In this document: positions 13,291 to 24,920 of the stretch, in pieces
How the letters are laid out: every line of letters starts with the position of its first letter
Position numbering within the stretch: position 1 is the stretch's first letter
Assembly: GCA_028700415.1 (NCBI GenBank)
Contig: JAQVSS010000011.1
Coordinates: 1-35,930 of the forward strand
DNA: 35,930 nucleotides
Reading direction: 5' to 3'
Source of the DNA: Kiritimatiellia bacterium
GTDB lineage: Bacteria > Verrucomicrobiota > Kiritimatiellia > RFP12 > UBA1067
Made by a program: the position numbers and the translations under genes
The notes under the pieces: model-generated
Databases searched by the model: none
What the model saw: the letters and a program-made list of their open reading frames with translations, nothing else
What the model was told of the DNA's origin: nothing

Positions 13291-15462
13291 TCACGAGCCG
13301 ACTCCGGCCTTGATTTCCACAACCCGGATGTCGCCCGGGCCGACGTCGATCGTGAGTTTGTTTTTCTCCCGGTCAAACGCGGCGGGCTCGTTTGTCAGCA
13401 GTTCGCGGACGCCGTTCACGCGCAGCGCCCGCAAATCCACCGTTACCCGGGCCGTCTCCGCGGGATCAAGTTCGTCCGGGGTCTGCGTGAACTTCGTCAC
13501 GCCTTTGTTGTTGATCAGGTAAACCCACCAGCCGCCGTCCACGCGGTTGAGCCCGTATTCGATGTCGCCTTCGACCGCCACGGGCAGGACCTCCCGCACG
13601 ATCTGTTCCATCAGCCGCCCGATCAGCGGCAGCTTCGCGGCGGGATCCTGCATATTCACTTTGTTGCGGGGCATCAGGTAATCGGCGGACGTCAGGATCA
13701 CGCGGCCGCGGCCGTACGTGTTCACGCTCGCCAGAACGCCGCCCTTGCTGTCCGTCCATACCGGTTGGGCGCCCGACAACGCCAGCGGCTCGTAATCGTA
13801 CGGTTCGGACAGGGCGACCGTGCCGTTGCCGGCCAGATCGGTGACGGGGCCGGCGACCTCGGCGGTCTTGCCCGTCAGCTTCGCGCCGAGAAACCCGGGC
13901 GGAAAATGCTGGTTCACCTGCCGGGCGTTGATGACCAGCGTCCCCCCTTGCCGGACGTAGTCCATGAGCCGCGCGGCGATCGGCGCGCCGATGTTCTGCT
14001 TGCCCAACAGGACCGCCGCTTTGTAATTCGGCAGGGCGGACAGGGAAGCGGGCCCGCCGGGCGGGTCACCCGCCAGCACGTCGTAGATGTCGCCGTAACG
14101 GCTGTTGGAGAGGCACCCTTCCTTGCCCTTGCGCAGATCCTGCGCGTGCGGCACCAGCGTGTACAGGAAACCGTCGACCATCGTGTCGGGACGCTCAACC
14201 GGGAAGAACGAGAAGGGGCTGCCGCCCCCGACGGGCATGCCTTGGCTGAACGGGATCAGCAGCGCCACCGGCGCGTAGCTGACTCCGCGGCCCGGATGCC
14301 GCCGCGTGAACGCATACCACTCCCTCATCGCCTCGCCGTGCGGCGAGAGCGACCACTTCGGCGGGTTCCCCGGCTCCAGCCGGCAATAGGCCCGCCCCCA
14401 ATCCTCGTGCTCGACGACACTCGCGCCGGACAGGTAGGCCAGGTAATTGTCGCGCCGCTTGAGCGAAACCGACATGCCGAAGCCCGGCCCCGAGTTCTCT
14501 TCCTGCCCCACCGTGTCGGACCGCGTGGTCGACACATAGTTCGGCTCGTTGTTGACGGAACGCGTCCCGTCTTTCTGGTAGCCGTTGTAATAAGAGGCCA
14601 TGTACCACACCCACGGCCTGCGGTATTGCCGCGACGCGCCGCGGATGAAAGCCATGCCCACCTGGTGCCGGTAGTTGCCGGTACTTGTGGTTTCCAGAAC
14701 CGCCAGCCCGGCGCCCCACTCCAGGCAATAATGGTCAAACGACCAGCCGGCACGCAGGAAGGTCATTTTGCCGGGGTCGTCGAAATAGTAGCGACGGATT
14801 CCCTTGTAACACTCGTGCAGCCCGCGGACCGCGGCCTCCCGGTCGGACTGGCAGGTTGCCCGCAAGGCCTTCGTCCGCGCGACCGCCGTCTCCGTCCATG
14901 TGCTCCGGCGTCCCTCCGCGAGCGTCCCTTCCGACCGGGAGAACATGTGCGCGATGAACTGGTTGTCCCACTCCGAGCCGGCCCTGAACCCCAGAAAGTT
15001 CGGGTGCTCGCGTTTCCACGCCTCATAGCTTTTCTTGTCGGCGTGGAAATCGTCCAGGCAGCGGAACGGCGGGCGCCCCGCCCCGCAGCTGACGAGGAAC
15101 GGCACGGCGGGATCGGGCTTAAGGGTATACAGCTTGTCCCCGCTCACCGCGAGAGGATCGTCGCCGGGGGCGCGCAGGTCCGCCACATGGTAAGAGCCGG
15201 CCGCCTCGCGGACCATCGCTTCGCCCGTGATGGCCTCTTTGCCCTTTCCATGTTTCGCGCCGGCAGGCAGCATGTTCCAGAAGCGCCGCCCGAAAATCTC
15301 CGGCGGCGCACATGTATCGCCCGCGTCAAAGTCCTCCCGGGCCACAAGCCGGCAGGCGCCGGGCGTCGCGCCGGGGGCGGGAAACACCGCAGGCCCGGCC
15401 ACCCCGGCGGCCGAAAGAAGCGCGGAAAGGAACAGGAACCGTGAGCGGTACGCGTGCGCCAT
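13291..15462 (-). CDS. Uncharacterised secreted glycoside-hydrolase-like protein with C-terminal GATase-like domain
   Basis: 770-aa ORF, likely start MAHAYRSRFLFLSALLSAAG (15462), signal peptide; 'YKAAVLLGKQNIGAPIAARLMDYVRQGGTLVINARQ' resembles the GATase-like middle domain of GH42-type enzymes. Confidence 0.6.
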   Translation of the reverse strand: MAHAYRSRFLFLSALLSAAGVAGPAVFPAPGATPGACRLVAREDFDAGDTCAPPEIFGRRFWNMLPAGAKHGKGKEAITGEAMVREAAGSYHVADLRAPGDDPLAVSGDKLYTLKPDPAVPFLVSCGAGRPPFRCLDDFHADKKSYEAWKREHPNFLGFRAGSEWDNQFIAHMFSRSEGTLAEGRRSTWTETAVARTKALRATCQSDREAAVRGLHECYKGIRRYYFDDPGKMTFLRAGWSFDHYCLEWGAGLAVLETTSTGNYRHQVGMAFIRGASRQYRRPWVWYMASYYNGYQKDGTRSVNNEPNYVSTTRSDTVGQEENSGPGFGMSVSLKRRDNYLAYLSGASVVEHEDWGRAYCRLEPGNPPKWSLSPHGEAMREWYAFTRRHPGRGVSYAPVALLIPFSQGMPVGGGSPFSFFPVERPDTMVDGFLYTLVPHAQDLRKGKEGCLSNSRYGDIYDVLAGDPPGGPASLSALPNYKAAVLLGKQNIGAPIAARLMDYVRQGGTLVINARQVNQHFPPGFLGAKLTGKTAEVAGPVTDLAGNGTVALSEPYDYEPLALSGAQPVWTDSKGGVLASVNTYGRGRVILTSADYLMPRNKVNMQDPAAKLPLIGRLMEQIVREVLPVAVEGDIEYGLNRVDGGWWVYLINNKGVTKFTQTPDELDPAETARVTVDLRALRVNGVRELLTNEPAAFDREKNKLTIDVGPGDIRVVEIKAGVGS

Positions 15463-15577
15463 GGAGACCCTCTTTTTTGTTAGACGTCGATTTTCTGCCA
15501 CAGACTCCCCATCATCGCGCCACCGTGATGCGGGCGGCAACAGGCCGGATAACAAAAATATCACTGTTGCAGTAAGT

Positions 15578-15633
15578 ATCACACAATCGTCACGCCTTGG
15601 CAATATCCGACCGCAATTCTAAATTTGTGTGAT
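15578..15633. promoter_or_regulatory. Candidate operator: separated inverted repeat ATCACACAA ... TTGTGTGAT
   Basis: Exact 9-bp arms at 15578-15586 and 15625-15633, upstream of the 13291-15462 gene. Confidence 0.35.
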
Positions 15634-15850: not shown

Positions 15851-15945
15851 TAAACGTTCAACTCTCAACGTTCAAGTAAAAACCCGTAGGGCTTGGCAGT
15901 CGTTCGCAGTTCTCCCCACTTGAACGTTGAGAGTTGAGCGTTCAT
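15851..15945. repeat. Heptad-repeat palindromic element, copy A
   Basis: Arms AACGTTCAACTCTCAACGTTCAAGT / ACTTGAACGTTGAGAGTTGAGCGTT (one mismatch over 25 bp) around core 'aaaaacccgtagggcttggcagtcgttcgcagttctcccc'. Confidence 0.85.
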
Positions 15946-15983
15946 TCCCATTCCCCACTTCTCCCCACTTGAGCGTTGAGCGT

Positions 15984-16385
15984 TCATCCCTTCTCTTCCC
16001 CATACGTCTCGCCATCTTCCCGGCAGCCGCCGGCGCGGGCGGTGCGGATACTGGCGGCGAAGATGCGGACGAGTTCGTCGGTCTCGTCCAGGGCCGCATC
16101 CAACGCGGCGGTGTCGGTCAGCAGCGGCACGCGCCGGATCAGCTTGAGCCAGCGGCGCGACTCGCGCAGTTCTTTGTGGCAAATCCCCAGCTTGTGGACG
16201 AAATCGTTCTTCGACTCCGCGCCTTCCGCCTCGCCGTGGTTGGGCAACGGAGAGGTGCCGGAACGAAGCAGTTGGCCGGCGATGTGGTTACCCGCGCGCG
16301 TGTCCGGCAGTTCCTCGACCAGCCGGATGATCTGCGACGCATAGTTCAGAAGCCGCTCCTCCAAGTCGAATCTCTGGTCAGGCAT
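15984..16385 (-). CDS. Four-helix-bundle protein (S23 / 23S rRNA intervening-sequence protein family)
   Basis: MPDQRFDLEERLLNYASQIIRLVEELPDTRAGNHIAGQLLRSGTSPLPNHGEAEGAESKNDFVHKLGICHKELRESRRWLKLI is typical of the family; AAAGGA ribosome-binding site upstream of 16385. Confidence 0.85.
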   Translation of the reverse strand: MPDQRFDLEERLLNYASQIIRLVEELPDTRAGNHIAGQLLRSGTSPLPNHGEAEGAESKNDFVHKLGICHKELRESRRWLKLIRRVPLLTDTAALDAALDETDELVRIFAASIRTARAGGCREDGETYGEEKG

Positions 16386-16416
16386 AAGCGAATCCTTTGT
16401 AACGTTAAACACTAAG

Positions 16417-16540
16417 TAACTCTCAACTCTCAACGCTCAACGCTCAACTCTCAAGTAAAAAACCCGTAGGGCTTGGCAGGCGCTCGCAGTCCTCCCCTCT
16501 TGCGCGTTGAGCGTTGAACGTTGAACGTTGAGCGTTCAAA
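16417..16540. repeat. Heptad-repeat palindromic element, copy B
   Basis: aactctcaactctcaacgctcaacgctcaactctcaag - core 'taaaaaacccgtagggcttggcaggcgctcgcagtcctcccctct' - tgcgcgttgagcgttgaacgttgaacgttgagcgttcaa; core nearly identical to copy A. Confidence 0.85.
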
Positions 16541-16580: not shown

Positions 16581-19500
16581 TCACGGCACCTCCACCTTCA
16601 CCCTGTAGAACCGTGTGCGATCGCCCGCATCGTCCGCCATGGCGTCCGCGCCACCCGCGCCGGCACGTGGACCCTGGCCGGGGACATCAGCCCACGGGCC
16701 TGCCGCGAGATTGGTCGTCGCCTGCAGAGTGTAGGCCCGAACCGACGAGCCGGGTTCGAAAAACACCCTCACGGGCGGGCCGTTGGAGATCGCGGTCACA
16801 CGGAAGTGCGAGACGGCGTTGGTCGGATCGGTGTCGGCCACATATTCCTGCCACGCCGTGTAGCCGTCGTTGTCGGAATCCGAAACGTCGGCGGTTTCAA
16901 AATCGCCGGTCACACCGAACTGCGCCAACCAGTACTCCGGCGTCTCATGCGAGGTGACGTTCGCCGCAAACGAGGCCTCGAAGCTTCCGTCGGCCGTCAC
17001 GTTGGCCCAGGCGAATTCCGTCACCGCGCCGACGGACGCGCCGTTGGTCGTTACGTCCCCCACGTGCCAGTACGTGTCGGGCGCGACGACGAAGTTGGTG
17101 CCGCCGCCGTACGGCACGCTGACCGCTCCGGACGGTTCAACCTTGCCGTGCGCACCGGCCTCGGCCGTGATCGTGACCGGCGACCCCTGTTCGCCCAACG
17201 TGTAGGATGCACCGTCCGCGAGCGACACGCCGGAGACGGTGAAGACACCACCCGCGTACGTTCCCGCCACCGTGTCCGCACCGACGAGCGTGTCGCCGCT
17301 GCCGGACACAAGGCGCAGATTGTCCGCATTCCAGATGAGGCCCCCGATGCCGGAACAGTCAAAGGCGAAATCGCCCGTAACGGTTCCTTCGCCCTCCGTC
17401 CGCCACACGCGGCCCAGCCGCCAGACCAGGTTGCCCGGCTTGTCGGCCACGGTCTGTTCCAGCGCGCCTCCGTCGTGGCCGAACACGCGGAAGTCGGTGC
17501 CCGCGACAACGGCGTTCGACACGCTCAGAATCGATGAGGCGAGCGAGTGGGTCCGCGCAATCCAATCGCCGCGCAGATTCGCGAGGCCGGCGAGCGTGTC
17601 GGCCACCGGATACTGGCTCACGGTCAAGGTTGCCCCATTCACCAGCGCGCCGTCGAGACCGTTGCCGCTCATGTCCGGCAGGGAGGCCCCATCCGTGGCG
17701 TCGCACCGGTAATACGCGAGCAGTCCGGCCTCATCGCCGTCGAGCGTCGTGTGCATGGCGTCGCGCAGCTCGTCCGCGCCGCGCGCGGTCGACCACACGC
17801 GCACTTCGTCCATCGCGCCTTTGTAGAACAAATTCGTGTTTGAGAACGCGCCGAGCATCGCCTGGTCCGTACTGGCGACGAAACTGATGCTCGACGTGCC
17901 CGCCTTCTCCTCGCCGTTGACGTAAAACCGCAGCGCGGCGCCGTCCCATGTGACGGCCACGTGCTGCCAGACGCACCATCTGATGACCGGATCGCTCGTC
18001 CCGGAACAGTGGCCCTGCGTCTCGAAACGGAGCTTGGCGTCAGCCGTGGCGGGATCGCTCCACGTGTTGATATAGAAAGCATAGCCTGGATTGGCGGAAC
18101 CGCTTTTCTTGCGGCTGAAAATCGAGCAGCTGCCGGTTTTCTCGACGGGTTTGATCCAGGCCTCGATGGTGAACGCGCCGTTCGTAAGAGCCAGAGACTC
18201 GTCCGTCCCAAGGCTGACACAGGCGTTGGTCCCGTTGAAGTTGAGCGCGTTGCCGCTCGCGCCATACTCGTACGCGCCCAGATCAACGGCGCCGCCGCGC
18301 ACACGCGACGTCCCGTCCAGATCCGTCGCGCCGCTCATCCAACTGCGTTTCAGTCCCACGTTCAGGCATGGCGACCCGCCCGAAAGGCGATAGTCGTCCG
18401 CGTTGGCGAAAAGAGGATCGCTGTCGAAGCAGCCCTCACCGCCGTGCGAGGCCAGCGCGTTTGTCGGAGAAACGCAGCAGTATGCGACCGTCGGCCGCAA
18501 ACTGCCGAACGCAATGTTGTTCGACTCCGTCAGTCCCGTGTTGCCGTAGATGACGCAGTTCAGGTTCGTGCCGTCATAGATGTACACACCGCCAATGCGG
18601 GAACCGCTGTTTCCGGCCACGGTACAGCTCTCGAGCAGGGCGTTGGTCGCGCCGGCGCGCATGTAGACGCCGCCGCCGTTGTCCGCCTGGTTATCGGCGA
18701 TCAGGCAGTTGCGTGCCGTGCCGCCCGAGTAAAAGTAGAGCCCGCCCCCGCCCTGGGTGCTCTTGCCGTCGGCCGCGTTGTCGCGGACAACACACCGGTC
18801 GAGCAAGGCACCCTTGTGCAGATTGACGCCCCCGCCGCCATAGGCCACCGAGTTGCCTTCGATCACGCACCCGGCCACACAGCCGCCGTAGTGAAAGTCG
18901 ACGCCGCCGCCGGTGATATTGGCGGAGCAGCCCGCGATCACACAGTTGGAGACCGTGCCGCCCTGATTCAGAAAGACGCCGCCGCCGCGCTGATAGCAGG
19001 CCCAATCACCCTCGGCCTGCGTATGACCGTTGGTGATCGTGAAGCCGGTCAGCAGACCGGCGCTGATCCAGACGCAGCGCGCGGCTGCCGGACCGTTCGT
19101 CCCGTGGTCGGAGGCGCCGACAATGAAGGTGCCCGACGGGCCGTCGACGCCCTTGACGGTGATGCCTTTGGTGATCGCCACGCGGTTGGTGAAGCCTTGG
19201 CCGTGTAGCACGATCCCGCCTTCGCCGTATACGCCGTTGGTGACCAGTACGGTGTCACCCCAGGCCGTCAAATCAACGGCGGACTGGATCGTGCGTTTGG
19301 CTGTCGCCCAACTCGTTCCATTGCCGCTGTCGTCCGGACGAGAAGCGTCCGCGTAGTAGGTGTAGGGGCCCGTCTGCAGTTCGCCCAGCGTGTAATAGGT
19401 TCCGGTGGCGAACGACTGGTTGGTGACCGTGAAAACGTCATTGCTATAAACGCCCGGCAGAAGGGCGGCGTCCTCAAACACGCCGTCTGCGTCGCGCAAC

Positions 19501-22500
19501 AGCCGCAGACGCTCCGGCACGGAAATCAAATCTGCGATTTCGCTGCAATCAAATCTCAGGACGCCGTCCGCCACGCCTTTGTCCTCCGTCTGCCAGACAC
19601 GCTGCAACCGCCAGTTGAGCGTGCCCGGCTTGTCGGACAGGTTGACGCTCAACGCGCCGCCGTCGTGTCCGAATATGGCGCAATCCGGCTCTGCGGCCGC
19701 ATCGTTCGCCATCGTCGCCAGCGACGAGGGCAGCGAATTGGTGCGCGCGCTCCAGACGGCGCGGAGATCCTGCCGGTCCGTGATGTCAGCCGCGCAGGGC
19801 CATGCCGCCGTTTTCCAAACAGGCGTCGGACTGCCGTAAAGCAGAGCATGGCTGCCCGATGACGCAAGGTCTTCCACGCGATCACCGGACAGTTCGTTCA
19901 GGTTATAGTAGCATGAGAGCCCTGTTTCCGTCCCCGTCAGCTCGCGGTGCAGGGTCTCCAGAATCTCGGCCTGCGTGCGGGCCACATGCCACACGCGCAC
20001 CTCGTCAATGCGGCCGTCCACATAATAGGAGATGCTATCGGGACCGACGCCGATGTGGATGATGTCGTCCGCGCTATTGATGGCCCGATCCGCCACGTTC
20101 GTGCGACCGGCCTCGACGCCGTTCACATACGTGATGAGCGCGTCGCCTCGCTTGTACGTCATCGCCAGATGCGTCCACTTCCCGGCGGTCACGACGCCGT
20201 TGGTGAAACTGTAGCGGACGAGGTCGGAATCCCACACCGCGGGGTAGATCCTGCCGCCCATGACGCCCAGATAGTAGCCCTTGGTCGACGGGACGGTGGA
20301 AAACCGGCACACCACCTTGCTGTCCTTGGTCACATCATCGAGCCGCACCCAAGCCTCCACCGTAAGCTCGTTGGTGATGGCCGGCGTGATGGCGCCGACG
20401 GTGCAGATCTTTTGGTTGTACGTCGAACTGCCCGTCAGTTCGACGCAGCCGCCGGGAGCTTTGGCGGGCGTGGTGAAACGGACCGCATCGCCATAGTTTG
20501 TGCCGCGGCTGTTCACGGCATAGGCGCGCACGAAGTAGTTGGTCTTGGGAGCCAGCCCCGTCAGGCTGCACGAGAACACGCCCGGGCCGCCGTCGGCAGC
20601 CGCGGCGCAGCCCTCATGGGCGGTCAGTGTCGGCGCCCCGCCCGTATTCCACACCACCCCGCGCCCGGTCACGGACGTCGCCCCCTCGTCCGTGACGTTG
20701 CCGCCGCAGACGGCGCTGTGGTACGTCACGTTGCTCACAGCCAGCGTCTCCACATACGGGAGGTCGTACGATTCGGTCGTGTACGCGAGCGTGAGATAGC
20801 CGACGTCCGTGAGGTTCACATCGTTTGCGCGGAACACCCCCTCCCAGGTTGTTCCACTGACCAGCGTGCCGTCCGCGAAAACGCCGTCGTCGTCCACCAG
20901 CAGCGCGAACGGCCCCGTGAGGCCGGTGACATCCCAGACGACGTCTGCGGCCACATCGCCGCCGCGCTCGACGCGCCACACGCGCCCGAGGCGTCCAGAA
21001 GCGCCCGCCGGCACATCGGCCGCGTTCTGCGTCTCGTCGGCGTTGTCGTGGCCGAACACGGCAAAGACCTCGCCCGTGACCGAAGCTCCTTCAATTGTCA
21101 TTCGTCCGGACGCCTGCGAATCCGGCTGCCCGGACCACACGCCGCGCAGGTCCGTCGCATCGGCGATCGCGAAAGCGCAGGGCACCCCCGAAACCACCCA
21201 GTCGGCGTCGTCCATGTTGGTCAGCGTACCCGTGTGGCCGTTGCCGGTAAGGTCGGACAGCTCGGCGCCGGACTTTGCGGTGAACGTGTAGCAGGCAACG
21301 AGCCCCGCCTCGCTGCCGCAAGGCTCGCGGTGCATGGTCGCCAGAATGTCGGCTTCCGTGCGCGCGACATTCCGGATGCGCATCTCGTCCATGCGGCCGT
21401 TCAGATACCGGCCGCTGAAGTCGCTGCCCAGGCGGAGCGAATCGGTGTTCGCGGCGACCGTCATGGTTCCGGATCCGAGCGGGACGTTTCGGCCGTTCAC
21501 ATAGAGCGTGCGCGTGCCGCCGCTGTTGACCGCCGCGGCGTGGTACCAGCATCCGGCCTGGAGCCCCAGCCCGCTTGTCACGCGGCCGTCGAAATCAAGT
21601 TCCGTCCCGCTTAGCCGCAGGAAGTAGCCGTTGGCACTCGCGGTCATGTACTTGCTGATCAGACCGCGCAGATCCCCGAACTCGTCGGCGCGGAACCAGC
21701 ACTCGAGCGTGTAGTCCGTCGTCAGATCGAGCGTCTCGTCGTCCGCGATATCCACACAGTCGTTGCTGCCGTCGAAATCCAGGCCGTTGCCGGGCGACTG
21801 GCGGATCGTGGTGAGAACCTGCGCGTCGCCGTAGACCGTCCCGCAGCTGTTCACGGCGTAGGCCCGCACATAGTAGGTCTCTCCTCCCGTGAGATCCGGG
21901 ATCGTATAGGCGAAGGCGCCGACTCTGGCGCCCGCGTCCCAGAGTCCGCCGCCCGTGTGCGAGTCCGTTGTCGGATTCACAGCCGTTCCCCATACCAGCC
22001 CCTTTGCCGTGACCGTCGCGCCGCCGTCGTCCGTGACCACACCGCCGCAATCGGCCGTCGTCGCCGTGATGTTGGAAACGGCATAGGTGACCACAGTCGC
22101 CAAGCTGATGATCGTCTGGAAACGTTCATAAGCTCCCATGTCGACGACGTCGCCCCCGATGCGAGGGTTGCCGGCCGCGTCCAGCGTGTTGGACGCCCAA
22201 GCCGAGTTGAGGCCGGCATCGTGCGCCGGCGACAGAGGGAGAAGAGAATAGTCATGTGCGGCTTCGTCTGTGAACAGGGGATCGCCGGCGGCACAGCCGG
22301 CACCGCCGGGCAGCCCGTCGGAGGGCGTGGTGCAGGAATAGATGATCTGCGAACCCGTCGCGCCGCTGGCCAGCCAGTTCGTCCCGCTCGCCGCCGCATT
22401 GAAATAAAGGATGCTGTTCACGACGGAGCCGTTGCCGTCCTTGATGAAAACGCCGCCGCCCTGGCGCCCCGCGCTGTTGTCGGCCACGGTGCAGTTGTAC

Positions 22501-24776
22501 AGCTCGGGGCCGTCGAATTCGCACATCACGCCGCCGCCCATTCCGTAGGTCACCGTGTCCGTTGCGGCGTTCGCATAGATCGCGCAGTTTTCCGCGCGGC
22601 AGGCGTAGGCCAGGTGCACGCCGCCGCCGTAGCGTCCCGCCGTGTTGCTGTAGACCAGACTGTTCGCCACCAGCCCCGCGTCGCGGCAATACACGCCGCC
22701 GCCGTACTTCTCGGCGACATTGTCATGAATCTCGCACCACTGAATCAGGCTCGTCGCGCAGCCCGCATACTGGACGTCGACCGCGCCGCCGCGTGTCGCG
22801 CGGTTGTCCGCCAGCGTGCAGTTCAGAACCGCACCCCCGTAATAAATGCCCGAGCCGCCGCCGTACAAGTTCGCGGAATTGGCCAGCAGCGCGCAGTTCG
22901 TCACGGTTCCGCCCACCACCAGAGCACCGCCACCGCACCGGTCGAGGATGTCATCCCCGCTCGCCCGCGTCCAACCGTTGCTCAGCGTAAAGCCGGAAAG
23001 CGTCGCGTTCGTGCCGACATACGCGCAGCGCACCGCCGCCGCGCCAAACCCGCCGCTGTCGGGAACGCCGACGATGAACGTCTGTTCCGGCCCCACCTCG
23101 CTGCGGACCGTCACGGCTTTGCCGATGCGCACGCGGTTCAGCGCGCCCGCGCCGGGAGTCGCGGCACCGCCCGCATTGTACGCGCCGGGGGCGACCACGA
23201 TCTCCTCCCCGTCGGCTGCGGCGTCGACGGCATCCTGGATCGTGTGGGCCGCATTCAGCCACGAGTTGTAGGGTGCCGCAGGCAGCGGACTGTCGGCCCA
23301 GACATAGCGCGTCACGAGTCCGACGCGCATGCCCACCGGCGAAGAAACGAATGACGCGCCGTGGGGATCGGTCACCCGCACCTTGACCAGATGCAGGCCC
23401 GCGGCGGGGAAATTCGTCGCAAAGGTCGATGTGCAGGCCATCGGCGCGGTGTCGTAGGTGCCGTCGTTGTCGAAGTCCCATTCGACGGTCACGGTGTCCA
23501 ACGTGTCGTCCGGATCAGACGACCCCGTCGCGTCAAAGGTGACGCTCTCCCCGACCGCAGGCGCGGGCGGCGTGATTTTGATGTTCGGCCACGGGCAGCG
23601 ATCGGTCACGCCCGATACGGAATAGACAAACGTCTGCGAAGTCTCGTTGCCATACACGTCTTGTACGCGGATCTGGTTCGTGACCGTGCCGGTCGTCAGA
23701 TAATAGGGCGTGCGGATCGTGAAGTCGGACGAAGTTCCGGAGAGCGTCTGTTCCGCAAGAACGCCGCCGCCGTATTCGCCACTCTCGTCGACGAGCAGGG
23801 CGAGTCCCAGCCCGGACGCATCGGAAACGGAAAAGTTCAGGACGGCCAGACCGCCCTCGACCGAGACCGTCCCGGACGGAACGGCGGACAGGTTGGGCAC
23901 CAGCGTGTCGGCGACCGCGCGGTTCGGCCTATAAAAGCGGCTCAGATTGCGCTGGATGGCGAAGGCGTATGAACAGCGTGTGAAATCGTCCGGATAGCGT
24001 GCCGGGCAAAGATAACCCTTCATTCCCCGGAAGCCGTTGCCCATCACGTTGCCGTAGAAGTTCCAGTCGTTACGGAAGTCGTGGTGGAGATGGAAGGCGT
24101 GACCGAACTCATGCAGGTTGGCGCCCAGATACGTCGAGCAAAGCGACGAAAGCGTGCTGCCCTCGCCGCTCCCGAAAGTCGTCCCGTAAACCAAGGGGTA
24201 TGCGCCGATCTCGGGAATCGTCAGCCCGTTGTAGGCCGCGTTATTTGTGAGATACTTCGGTGCGCACATCGCCAAACAATCACCGCTCACCACCGCCACG
24301 CCGGAACCGGCGTCCCCTGTTGCGCCCGCATAGTGCCCGAACAGCGATCCGTCGGGCTGCATGATGTGCGCCTCACCCACGAGGAACCAGACATTGTTCT
24401 CCTTCCAGAGCTGCGCGCCGCCATCCGCCGCCGCCGCGCCAACGCGCGTCCACATGTTCGAGGCCAGATAGGCGTCCGTCTGGCTGGTGTGGATGACCCA
24501 CACTTTGGGCGTCCAGCCGTCTGTCTCGGTTTCGACGTTGAACGTCGTGTCGGGAAAGCCGTTCAGTTCCATCTGTTCGCGACACCACACGCGGTAGAGC
24601 AGAAACGCGGCACGGAGGACGGCCACGCCATTCGTCTGCTCCGTCCGGTTCGATGGGATGACGTAGCCGATGCGGACGGTCGGTTTGCCGACGTCCGGAA
24701 TCTCCGAACGTGCCGGGACGGAAAATAGAGCGAACACTAAAAGGCACCCGGCAACGAATCGTCCATTTGTATTCAT
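16581..24776 (-). CDS. Giant secreted modular protein: metzincin-like N-domain, PKD, two parallel beta-helix regions, three LamG modules, calcium-binding-type C-terminal motif
   Basis: Start MNTNGRFVAGCLLVFALFSVPARS; 'NLHEFGHAFHLHHD'; 'WDFDNDGTYDTA' PKD; two 'TIQDAVDAA/TIQSAVDLT ... GGGV' beta-helix regions; three LamG units with 'FGHDxxx...RVWRTE' tails; 'DSDNDGYTAWQEYVADTDPTN'. Confidence 0.85.
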   Translation of the reverse strand: MNTNGRFVAGCLLVFALFSVPARSEIPDVGKPTVRIGYVIPSNRTEQTNGVAVLRAAFLLYRVWCREQMELNGFPDTTFNVETETDGWTPKVWVIHTSQTDAYLASNMWTRVGAAAADGGAQLWKENNVWFLVGEAHIMQPDGSLFGHYAGATGDAGSGVAVVSGDCLAMCAPKYLTNNAAYNGLTIPEIGAYPLVYGTTFGSGEGSTLSSLCSTYLGANLHEFGHAFHLHHDFRNDWNFYGNVMGNGFRGMKGYLCPARYPDDFTRCSYAFAIQRNLSRFYRPNRAVADTLVPNLSAVPSGTVSVEGGLAVLNFSVSDASGLGLALLVDESGEYGGGVLAEQTLSGTSSDFTIRTPYYLTTGTVTNQIRVQDVYGNETSQTFVYSVSGVTDRCPWPNIKITPPAPAVGESVTFDATGSSDPDDTLDTVTVEWDFDNDGTYDTAPMACTSTFATNFPAAGLHLVKVRVTDPHGASFVSSPVGMRVGLVTRYVWADSPLPAAPYNSWLNAAHTIQDAVDAAADGEEIVVAPGAYNAGGAATPGAGALNRVRIGKAVTVRSEVGPEQTFIVGVPDSGGFGAAAVRCAYVGTNATLSGFTLSNGWTRASGDDILDRCGGGALVVGGTVTNCALLANSANLYGGGSGIYYGGAVLNCTLADNRATRGGAVDVQYAGCATSLIQWCEIHDNVAEKYGGGVYCRDAGLVANSLVYSNTAGRYGGGVHLAYACRAENCAIYANAATDTVTYGMGGGVMCEFDGPELYNCTVADNSAGRQGGGVFIKDGNGSVVNSILYFNAAASGTNWLASGATGSQIIYSCTTPSDGLPGGAGCAAGDPLFTDEAAHDYSLLPLSPAHDAGLNSAWASNTLDAAGNPRIGGDVVDMGAYERFQTIISLATVVTYAVSNITATTADCGGVVTDDGGATVTAKGLVWGTAVNPTTDSHTGGGLWDAGARVGAFAYTIPDLTGGETYYVRAYAVNSCGTVYGDAQVLTTIRQSPGNGLDFDGSNDCVDIADDETLDLTTDYTLECWFRADEFGDLRGLISKYMTASANGYFLRLSGTELDFDGRVTSGLGLQAGCWYHAAAVNSGGTRTLYVNGRNVPLGSGTMTVAANTDSLRLGSDFSGRYLNGRMDEMRIRNVARTEADILATMHREPCGSEAGLVACYTFTAKSGAELSDLTGNGHTGTLTNMDDADWVVSGVPCAFAIADATDLRGVWSGQPDSQASGRMTIEGASVTGEVFAVFGHDNADETQNAADVPAGASGRLGRVWRVERGGDVAADVVWDVTGLTGPFALLVDDDGVFADGTLVSGTTWEGVFRANDVNLTDVGYLTLAYTTESYDLPYVETLAVSNVTYHSAVCGGNVTDEGATSVTGRGVVWNTGGAPTLTAHEGCAAAADGGPGVFSCSLTGLAPKTNYFVRAYAVNSRGTNYGDAVRFTTPAKAPGGCVELTGSSTYNQKICTVGAITPAITNELTVEAWVRLDDVTKDSKVVCRFSTVPSTKGYYLGVMGGRIYPAVWDSDLVRYSFTNGVVTAGKWTHLAMTYKRGDALITYVNGVEAGRTNVADRAINSADDIIHIGVGPDSISYYVDGRIDEVRVWHVARTQAEILETLHRELTGTETGLSCYYNLNELSGDRVEDLASSGSHALLYGSPTPVWKTAAWPCAADITDRQDLRAVWSARTNSLPSSLATMANDAAAEPDCAIFGHDGGALSVNLSDKPGTLNWRLQRVWQTEDKGVADGVLRFDCSEIADLISVPERLRLLRDADGVFEDAALLPGVYSNDVFTVTNQSFATGTYYTLGELQTGPYTYYADASRPDDSGNGTSWATAKRTIQSAVDLTAWGDTVLVTNGVYGEGGIVLHGQGFTNRVAITKGITVKGVDGPSGTFIVGASDHGTNGPAAARCVWISAGLLTGFTITNGHTQAEGDWACYQRGGGVFLNQGGTVSNCVIAGCSANITGGGVDFHYGGCVAGCVIEGNSVAYGGGGVNLHKGALLDRCVVRDNAADGKSTQGGGGLYFYSGGTARNCLIADNQADNGGGVYMRAGATNALLESCTVAGNSGSRIGGVYIYDGTNLNCVIYGNTGLTESNNIAFGSLRPTVAYCCVSPTNALASHGGEGCFDSDPLFANADDYRLSGGSPCLNVGLKRSWMSGATDLDGTSRVRGGAVDLGAYEYGASGNALNFNGTNACVSLGTDESLALTNGAFTIEAWIKPVEKTGSCSIFSRKKSGSANPGYAFYINTWSDPATADAKLRFETQGHCSGTSDPVIRWCVWQHVAVTWDGAALRFYVNGEEKAGTSSISFVASTDQAMLGAFSNTNLFYKGAMDEVRVWSTARGADELRDAMHTTLDGDEAGLLAYYRCDATDGASLPDMSGNGLDGALVNGATLTVSQYPVADTLAGLANLRGDWIARTHSLASSILSVSNAVVAGTDFRVFGHDGGALEQTVADKPGNLVWRLGRVWRTEGEGTVTGDFAFDCSGIGGLIWNADNLRLVSGSGDTLVGADTVAGTYAGGVFTVSGVSLADGASYTLGEQGSPVTITAEAGAHGKVEPSGAVSVPYGGGTNFVVAPDTYWHVGDVTTNGASVGAVTEFAWANVTADGSFEASFAANVTSHETPEYWLAQFGVTGDFETADVSDSDNDGYTAWQEYVADTDPTNAVSHFRVTAISNGPPVRVFFEPGSSVRAYTLQATTNLAAGPWADVPGQGPRAGAGGADAMADDAGDRTRFYRVKVEVP

Positions 24777-24828
24777 GGCATCCTCCAGACAGGGCTGAAG
24801 CCCCTTTTCGGACGATGCCCCAACCGCA

Positions 24829-24883
24829 CCGGCGAACGCAATCCGTTTGCGGCGAACGGTGGGAAAAGAGGGGACGAACGGTA
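24829..24883 (-). promoter_or_regulatory. Three direct repeats of CGAACG core, candidate LytTR response-regulator binding sites
   Basis: cggcgaacgca (24830), cggcgaacggtg (24850), ggacgaacggta (24872), spaced 20 and 22 bp, between a LytTR regulator gene and the giant gene. Confidence 0.4.
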
Positions 24884-24920
24884 CGCGCCGGACGAGAGAA
24901 AGGACCACACGCGCCCGTGT

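Follow-up and report, generated by a model that had tools for sequence, protein, structure and literature searches.

To our knowledge, the PF05635 (S23/IVP) proteins are common in bacteria and have been without a known role since they were named after the intervening sequences of rRNA, and we know of no cause proposed for the short 6-9-bp tandem arrays that have been described in bacteria for decades. The closest described systems are the rRNA intervening sequences (IVSs) of Leptospira, Coxiella and Brucella, in which an S23p ORF of the same protein family lies between complementary termini. The IVS of Coxiella 23S rRNA carries such an ORF, has complementary termini of 28 bp and is excised by RNase III; tandem heptamers (GACAGAT) stand directly before the ORF in a strain-variable number, in which the authors saw a variable feature only (PMC4990558). 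The X. campestris protein has been reported as a homopentamer ring (PMC4990558). Heptad arrays in intergenic gaps have been described separately, as TAACTGA in Beggiatoaceae (PMC4679880) and as GGGAATC in Xanthomonas and Nostoc (PMC4692102); no mention of S23/IVP was found in the texts of these two papers, where the arrays are presented without a cognate protein.

The locus analysed here lies in a window of 35,930 nucleotides, the whole stretch of DNA examined, from a Kiritimatiellia bacterium. An initial annotation had described two composites of the same orientation bracketing one S23/IVS-type gene. Both composites are present (15853-15942 and 16418-16536), and the observation is real, yet it understates what is present. 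Along the gene strand the order is arm, core and inverted arm (16536-16418), the gene, a half-arm (15984-15967), and again arm, core and inverted arm (15942-15853); the coordinates of all parts are collected in Table 1. Each arm is a run of AAC-NNNN heptads. The two composites have a 65-nt stretch in common with 88% identity, and the complementarity of the arms is 96% over 25 nt in the downstream composite and 84% over 38 nt in the upstream one. RNA folding on the gene strand gave -61 kcal/mol (z -7.4) and -43.6 kcal/mol (z -7.0) for the two composites, far below dinucleotide shuffles and in accordance with the long hairpins that had been claimed for them. The terminator-like stem AAGCCC-TAC-GGGTTT, also claimed for the minus strand, was located within the upstream core. 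An alternative upstream start of the gene is possible at a TTG (16433). The IVP gene is the sole gene recognised in the unit, and its neighbours, both on the minus strand, are a gene at 13291-15603 and a 2775-aa gene at 16581-24908. The latter apparently encodes a surface protein with internal repeats.

Table 1. Parts of the S23/IVP element in the window (positions of the 35,930-nucleotide stretch)
Feature	Position	Strand	Remarks
S23/IVP four-helix-bundle gene	15984..16385	-	133 aa from ATG at 16385; PF05635 and TIGR02436 profiles
Upstream composite, outer arm	16499..16536	-	(AACNNNN)x5 on the gene strand; template of the window clade
Upstream composite, core	16456..16498	-	43 nt; terminator-like stem inside at 16474-16460
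Upstream composite, inner arm, inverted	16418..16455	-	ends 32 nt 5' of the ATG
Half-arm, 2-3 heptads	15967..15984	-	at the IVP stop codon; absent from the initial annotation
Downstream composite, first arm	15918..15942	-	
Downstream composite, core	15878..15917	-	40 nt; plus strand reads AAAAACCCGTAGGGCTTGGCAG
Downstream composite, terminal arm, inverted	15853..15877	-	96% complementary to 15918-15942

The assignment of the protein to the S23/IVS-type family was borne out by both profiles, the scores being above the curated cut-offs for PF05635 (45.2 bits against 33.8, E 1.2e-11) and TIGR02436 (79.1 bits against 24, E 2.6e-22). The AF2 (AlphaFold) model of the protein was all-helical with a pLDDT of 88. 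A fold search with this predicted model returned 2RLD and 2GSC as the best PDB matches, followed by Avd (4DWL), and indicated a four-helix bundle like that of 2RLD and 2GSC (TM-score 0.70-0.76, depending on the query length). These two nearest solved structures each contain five chains. The net charge of the window protein is -5, compared with a family median of +2, and such an acidic protein does not suggest strong non-specific binding of nucleic acid. No nuclease, reverse-transcriptase or transposase domains were found in the IVP protein. At two other loci (L010, L031) the last part of the IVP frame can run into the right array, which makes the C-terminal tail a translated repeat, e.g. PETRNLKPETRNQKPET.

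Three copies of the ~690-bp unit were found in the genome of the window, the other two on contigs C516 (88%) and C163 (87%). Arms unaccompanied by the gene were found at dozens of further places in this genome; among 34 gene-less regions inspected, many were inverted pairs of arms with a short spacer or none and some were single arms, and gene-less arm-spacer-arm copies are dispersed through the genome. The 55 uninterrupted solo arms of the form (AACNNNN)n with n of at least 3 had exactly five units in 33 cases and four in 16. The exact core was rare, with 6 places within 3 mismatches, which indicates that the arms and not the core are the general feature. A core occurring genome-wide with no tie to four-helix-bundle genes, the situation that would speak against the cassette, was not what the analysis revealed: gene-less copies exist, and the association with the genes is very strong. 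This genome holds 16 PF05635 genes, and the exact TTGANNG heptad stands beside three of them. The reading of the repeats as a private cassette of these three genes was dropped once the detection of periods no longer depended on a given sequence, as arrays, differing in unit from gene to gene, were then seen on either side of nearly every IVP gene. Arrays of a second unit of the GGTGTCA/GGTTTCA type were seen near AACNNNN arms at four loci (L303, L310, L314, L320) of the same genome, and a unit of this type also surrounds another IVP clade; the same gaps receive elements of more than one family.

The association was analysed across bacteria using 80 loci from a species-level genome collection, found by a profile of the window clade, and about 109 further loci with diverse PF05635 genes of order-level relatives, mostly from draft metagenome-assembled genomes in which arrays break contigs. 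The detector accepted any tandem period and required a score of at least 8 on both sides within 350 bp. Of 210 IVP genes, 156 had an array on either side with the same period, compared with 14 of 268 displaced windows (Fisher p 1e-60). Among PIN (PF01850) genes of similar size in the same genomes this held for one of 30 (p 2e-14), that one being a GC run; these p-values overstate independence because the loci are related by descent. The 54 loci below the two-sided test include some at contig ends and others, e.g. L016, at which one array or both are lacking. The template of the window clade, (AACNNNN)5AA with at least 14 of 17 positions, was matched in 60 of 80 left and 50 of 80 right flanks against 1.4% of control windows (n=508), at loci from Verrucomicrobiota, Lentisphaerota, Kiritimatiellota, Desulfobacterota, Planctomycetota, Nitrospinota, Armatimonadota and others. 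On annotated plasmids, all 15 genes annotated as S23 or 'four helix bundle protein' had period-7 arrays on both sides, that is 30 of 30 flanks compared with 5 of 30 control windows. The plasmid copies span cyanobacteria, Bacteroidota, Chloroflexota and Spirochaetota, the hosts being Nostoc, Anabaena, Trichormus, Calothrix, Planktothrix, Gloeocapsa, Geminocystis, Pseudanabaena, Euhalothece, Riemerella, Bernardetia, Chlorohelix and Treponema saccharophilum. Other four-helix-bundle genes are thus flanked by such elements too, while the particular palindrome and core emphasised in the initial annotation are not essential, most relatives having one inverted pair of tandem arrays. Among the scorable loci the arrays were inverted in 141 and direct in 13, so that terminal inverted repeats are present in 141 of 154. 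The repeat sequence and even the period differ between the clades of the IVP protein.

Some loci of this sample have particular neighbourhoods. IVP elements separate cas2 from cas1 in two cyanobacterial plasmids, and a third plasmid has one separating cas6 from cas4 (L372, L375, L367). A Chloroflexota and a cyanobacterial plasmid carry an IVP element at the same junction of a DUF1156 gene and a Swt1 HEPN gene (L373, L374), which points either to one insertion that travelled with a transferred operon or to insertion more than once. A dense cluster of IVP-type arrays extending over more than 20 kb (L180, G057:C7:5000-24500) includes at least one IVP gene, at 18682, and its matches lie between about 5.7 and 28.8 kb on the contig.

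Presence and absence of the element were followed in genus g21. Within a single gene neighbourhood, genome G038 carries three inserts of 640-750 bp, each in a gap of its own, and two of these contain IVP genes. Site 1 is empty in G057, G054, G051 and G047, site 2 in G043, G047, G051 and G054, and site 3 in G057, G054 and G043; at all three the neighbouring genes of these genomes are a few bases apart. The gaps between gene ends at the empty sites measure 5-27 bp, and the alignments also contain a few of 58-117 bp; no arrays were seen in the junctions inspected at the three sites. These clean empty sites in congeneric genomes indicate that gene and arrays were gained as one ~0.65-kb unit in intergenic gaps. 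The suggestion that the unit is a cassette that comes and goes thereby gains substance, with three copies in the genome of the window and related units cleanly absent at orthologous sites of congeneric genomes. The site-2 element is common to G038 and G057, and its two arms differ together between them (AGAGAAC/AGTGAAC against GGAGAAC), suggesting concerted change of both ends. At L142 (G043 against G038) the site was not clean, the gene-less genome having other arrays there, and in the comparison of G011 with G025 the gene is common to both and the site is interrupted by other DNA. The elements abut gene ends, the stop codon of a co-directional upstream gene lying a median of 8 nt before the arm. 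No target-site duplication was recognisable at flank identities of 70-93%, at which the empty sites are too diverged to tell.

The arrays might instead be moved like MITEs or REPINs by an unrelated transposase (e.g. Y1) or a reverse transcriptase, with the IVP gene as cargo. The solo arm-core-arm copies are indeed MITE-like, and the genome of the window has Y1_Tnp (six) and RVT_1 genes, none of them in the cassette. However, neither RVT_1 nor Y1_Tnp was found in six g21 genomes (93-95% complete) that are polymorphic for IVP insertions. Within that completeness neither enzyme appears to be needed in this genus, and trans-mobilisation by either was rejected as a candidate for it. Cargo status would also not explain why period and unit follow the IVP protein, as described below, and such a passenger origin is considered highly unlikely. 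Two other origins were tried. The AACNNNN/GTTNNNN units resemble the core sites of integron attC (RYYYAAC/GTTRRRY); an attC-like nature was dropped as the units of other IVP clades lack the motif and no integrase is present in the cassette. A phage origin was likewise set aside, no relative being found in IMG/VR by the search made.

The period of the arrays is mostly 7, with 8, 9 and 6 in particular clades and 12-14 with two-domain proteins. Mapped on the protein tree, the period requires 18 changes, compared with a mean of 32 and a minimum of 29 for shuffled labels. Among period-7 loci the similarity of the units rises with protein identity (Mantel r 0.53, 0/500 permutations), and the relation persists at r 0.17 (0/500 permutations) without the loci from the window-clade scan. 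The unit of the window clade is AAC[AG][TC][CT][CG], a fixed triplet with a degenerate spacer rather than an exact microsatellite, and AACNNNN with about five units per arm is found from Verrucomicrobiota to Desulfobacterota. Five units is also the modal arm of period-7 arrays (80 of 232 arms), the range of 2 to more than 30 units making five the mode and not the rule.

The two-domain proteins gave a further view of this relation. With each intact locus counted once, the period was 12 or 13 in 7 of 7 (L018, L249, L252, L253, L255 and L260 with about 246-261 aa, and L264, where the frame runs on); an eighth, frame-shifted locus (L257) has a 14-bp unit. The half-units have an identity of 0.19-0.48, from chance to weakly alike, compared with 0.67-1.0 at the full period, and single-domain relatives in the same clade (HEKLxVYQ) have 6-bp units. 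The arms contain about three units (36-40 nt) with two-domain and about five (31-37 nt) with single-domain proteins. One domain per unit is the simplest reading of the doubled period, and the doubling may represent a single event, as the two-domain proteins, 38-67% identical, seem to form a single clade. One two-domain locus, together with its flanks, has 98-99% identity over a length of about 2.7 kb between two genomes placed in different genera (L018 in G000:C45, L251 in G008:C55), which reflects either recent transfer or cross-binning of contigs. At the level of sequence comparison, the arrays were shown to be a regular component of the element across many phyla, with period and unit following the protein clade. 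Ordinary microsatellite slippage, with IVP genes tending to land in the arrays or to recombine between them, would account for the variation of array length between loci, with some of more than 30 units, and for the common occurrence of arrays without a gene. It is extremely improbable in view of the empty sites without any array, the inverted arms in 141 of 154 loci, the doubling of the unit with the protein, and the AAC kept across phyla while NNNN varied, which is unlike slippage repeats.

The pairing of the two arms was analysed over all loci. In-order complementarity was 0.833 compared with 0.824 for permuted arms (p = 0.20), with a small excess in the clade of the window (0.667 against 0.640), and a conserved RNA stem across the gene was rejected on this basis as the main constraint. 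As in-order pairing hardly exceeds what shared units give, recognition of a paired hairpin is less likely than recognition of the units. The earlier proposal that the protein recognises the flanking element fits the dependence of unit and period on the protein, and it is the specific paired hairpin within that proposal that is less likely. The sequence data favour recognition of the units by the protein, in DNA or RNA form, over a selected RNA stem. An RNA module, in which the protein binds units in its own transcript in the manner of TRAP, a stem of the inverted arms that RNase III could cleave lets the element sit harmlessly within transcripts like an rRNA IVS, and occasional recombination spreads it, draws on several of the above results: IVP genes are mostly co-directional with their neighbours (281 of 394 compared with 21 of 48 for the PIN control), the upstream stop codon comes just before the element (median 8 nt), the hairpins of the window fold strongly, and the Coxiella 23S IVS combines an S23 ORF, 28-bp inverted termini, heptamers and RNase III excision (PMC4990558). 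Such a module is nevertheless unlikely, considering the weak in-order complementarity (p 0.20, with the small excess in the window clade), the dispersal of gene-less copies as inverted pairs and the loci that lie between genes on opposite strands.

The unit is probably a minimal mobile element, in which a ring-forming protein would read cognate repeat ends with about one protomer per unit. The protein may assemble into a five-membered ring on the pattern of 2RLD and 2GSC, and this ring would read the array with about one protomer per unit in a TRAP-like manner, the array being the cognate end sequence of the protein. The ring may then mark or pair both ends of the element, and the element or a gene-less derivative would be copied or moved into new gaps between genes, with the cutting and joining enzyme not encoded by the element; repeated spread may strew genomes with heptad arrays. 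We infer that a five-fold ring may read about five units, which is a specific proposal. The IVP gene and the short arrays would belong together, the gene giving the array its length and letters. This points to a mode of reading repeated DNA or RNA that would be new for proteins, of which the two-domain form is a natural variant that reads double units, and to a mobile element so small that the cutting enzyme would have to come from elsewhere. Some of the enigmatic short repeats that have long been noted in genomes of bacteria may find their explanation here as well. On balance we lean towards a new class of element, in which a pentameric ring reads the units and the protein architecture sets their period and sequence, and which may be the source of some scattered heptanucleotide arrays (in cyanobacterial, Xanthomonas, Beggiatoa and PVC genomes) and of rRNA IVSs.

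TRAP, the trp RNA-binding attenuation protein, is an eleven-fold ring that reads regularly spaced triplets. It would serve as a model of the working principle only, being an unrelated protein, while the putative IVP ring is five-fold and the spacing is 6-9 nt. The heptanucleotide STRR of cyanobacteria, TAACTGA and GGGAATC are likewise dispersed 7-bp tandem arrays and occur in groups that carry IVP genes. In the open-access literature, which was the literature covered, no report of a link between the IVP gene family and arrays was found, and a general array-protein link is not made in the rRNA IVS papers found there. Like the rRNA IVSs, the window element has inverted terminal repeats around an S23p ORF; unlike them, it lies between two protein genes and not in 23S or 16S rRNA, and an LSU-like motif was present in one of all fetched loci (L037, array-only). 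The rRNA IVSs may be members of this element class that landed in tolerant rRNA helices. Avd of the diversity-generating retroelements has the same fold as IVP, being the next-best family in the fold search, whereas no reverse transcriptase or template/variable repeat is linked to the element and no RVT_1 was found in the six g21 genomes. The element resembles REP/REPIN-RAYT systems in its repeat-flanked gene matching its repeats and its dispersed gene-less palindromic copies, and differs from them in that IVP is not a transposase and the ends are tandem arrays instead of a single hairpin. Terminal inverted repeats are shared with DNA transposons and insertion sequences, which unlike the present element encode a transposase. 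The element class is considered new since the element lacks at least one tested defining feature of each of rRNA IVS, insertion sequence, diversity-generating retroelement and REPIN/RAYT. The protein family and its rRNA variant are known, and, as far as searched, the element class and the repeat set by its protein are new.
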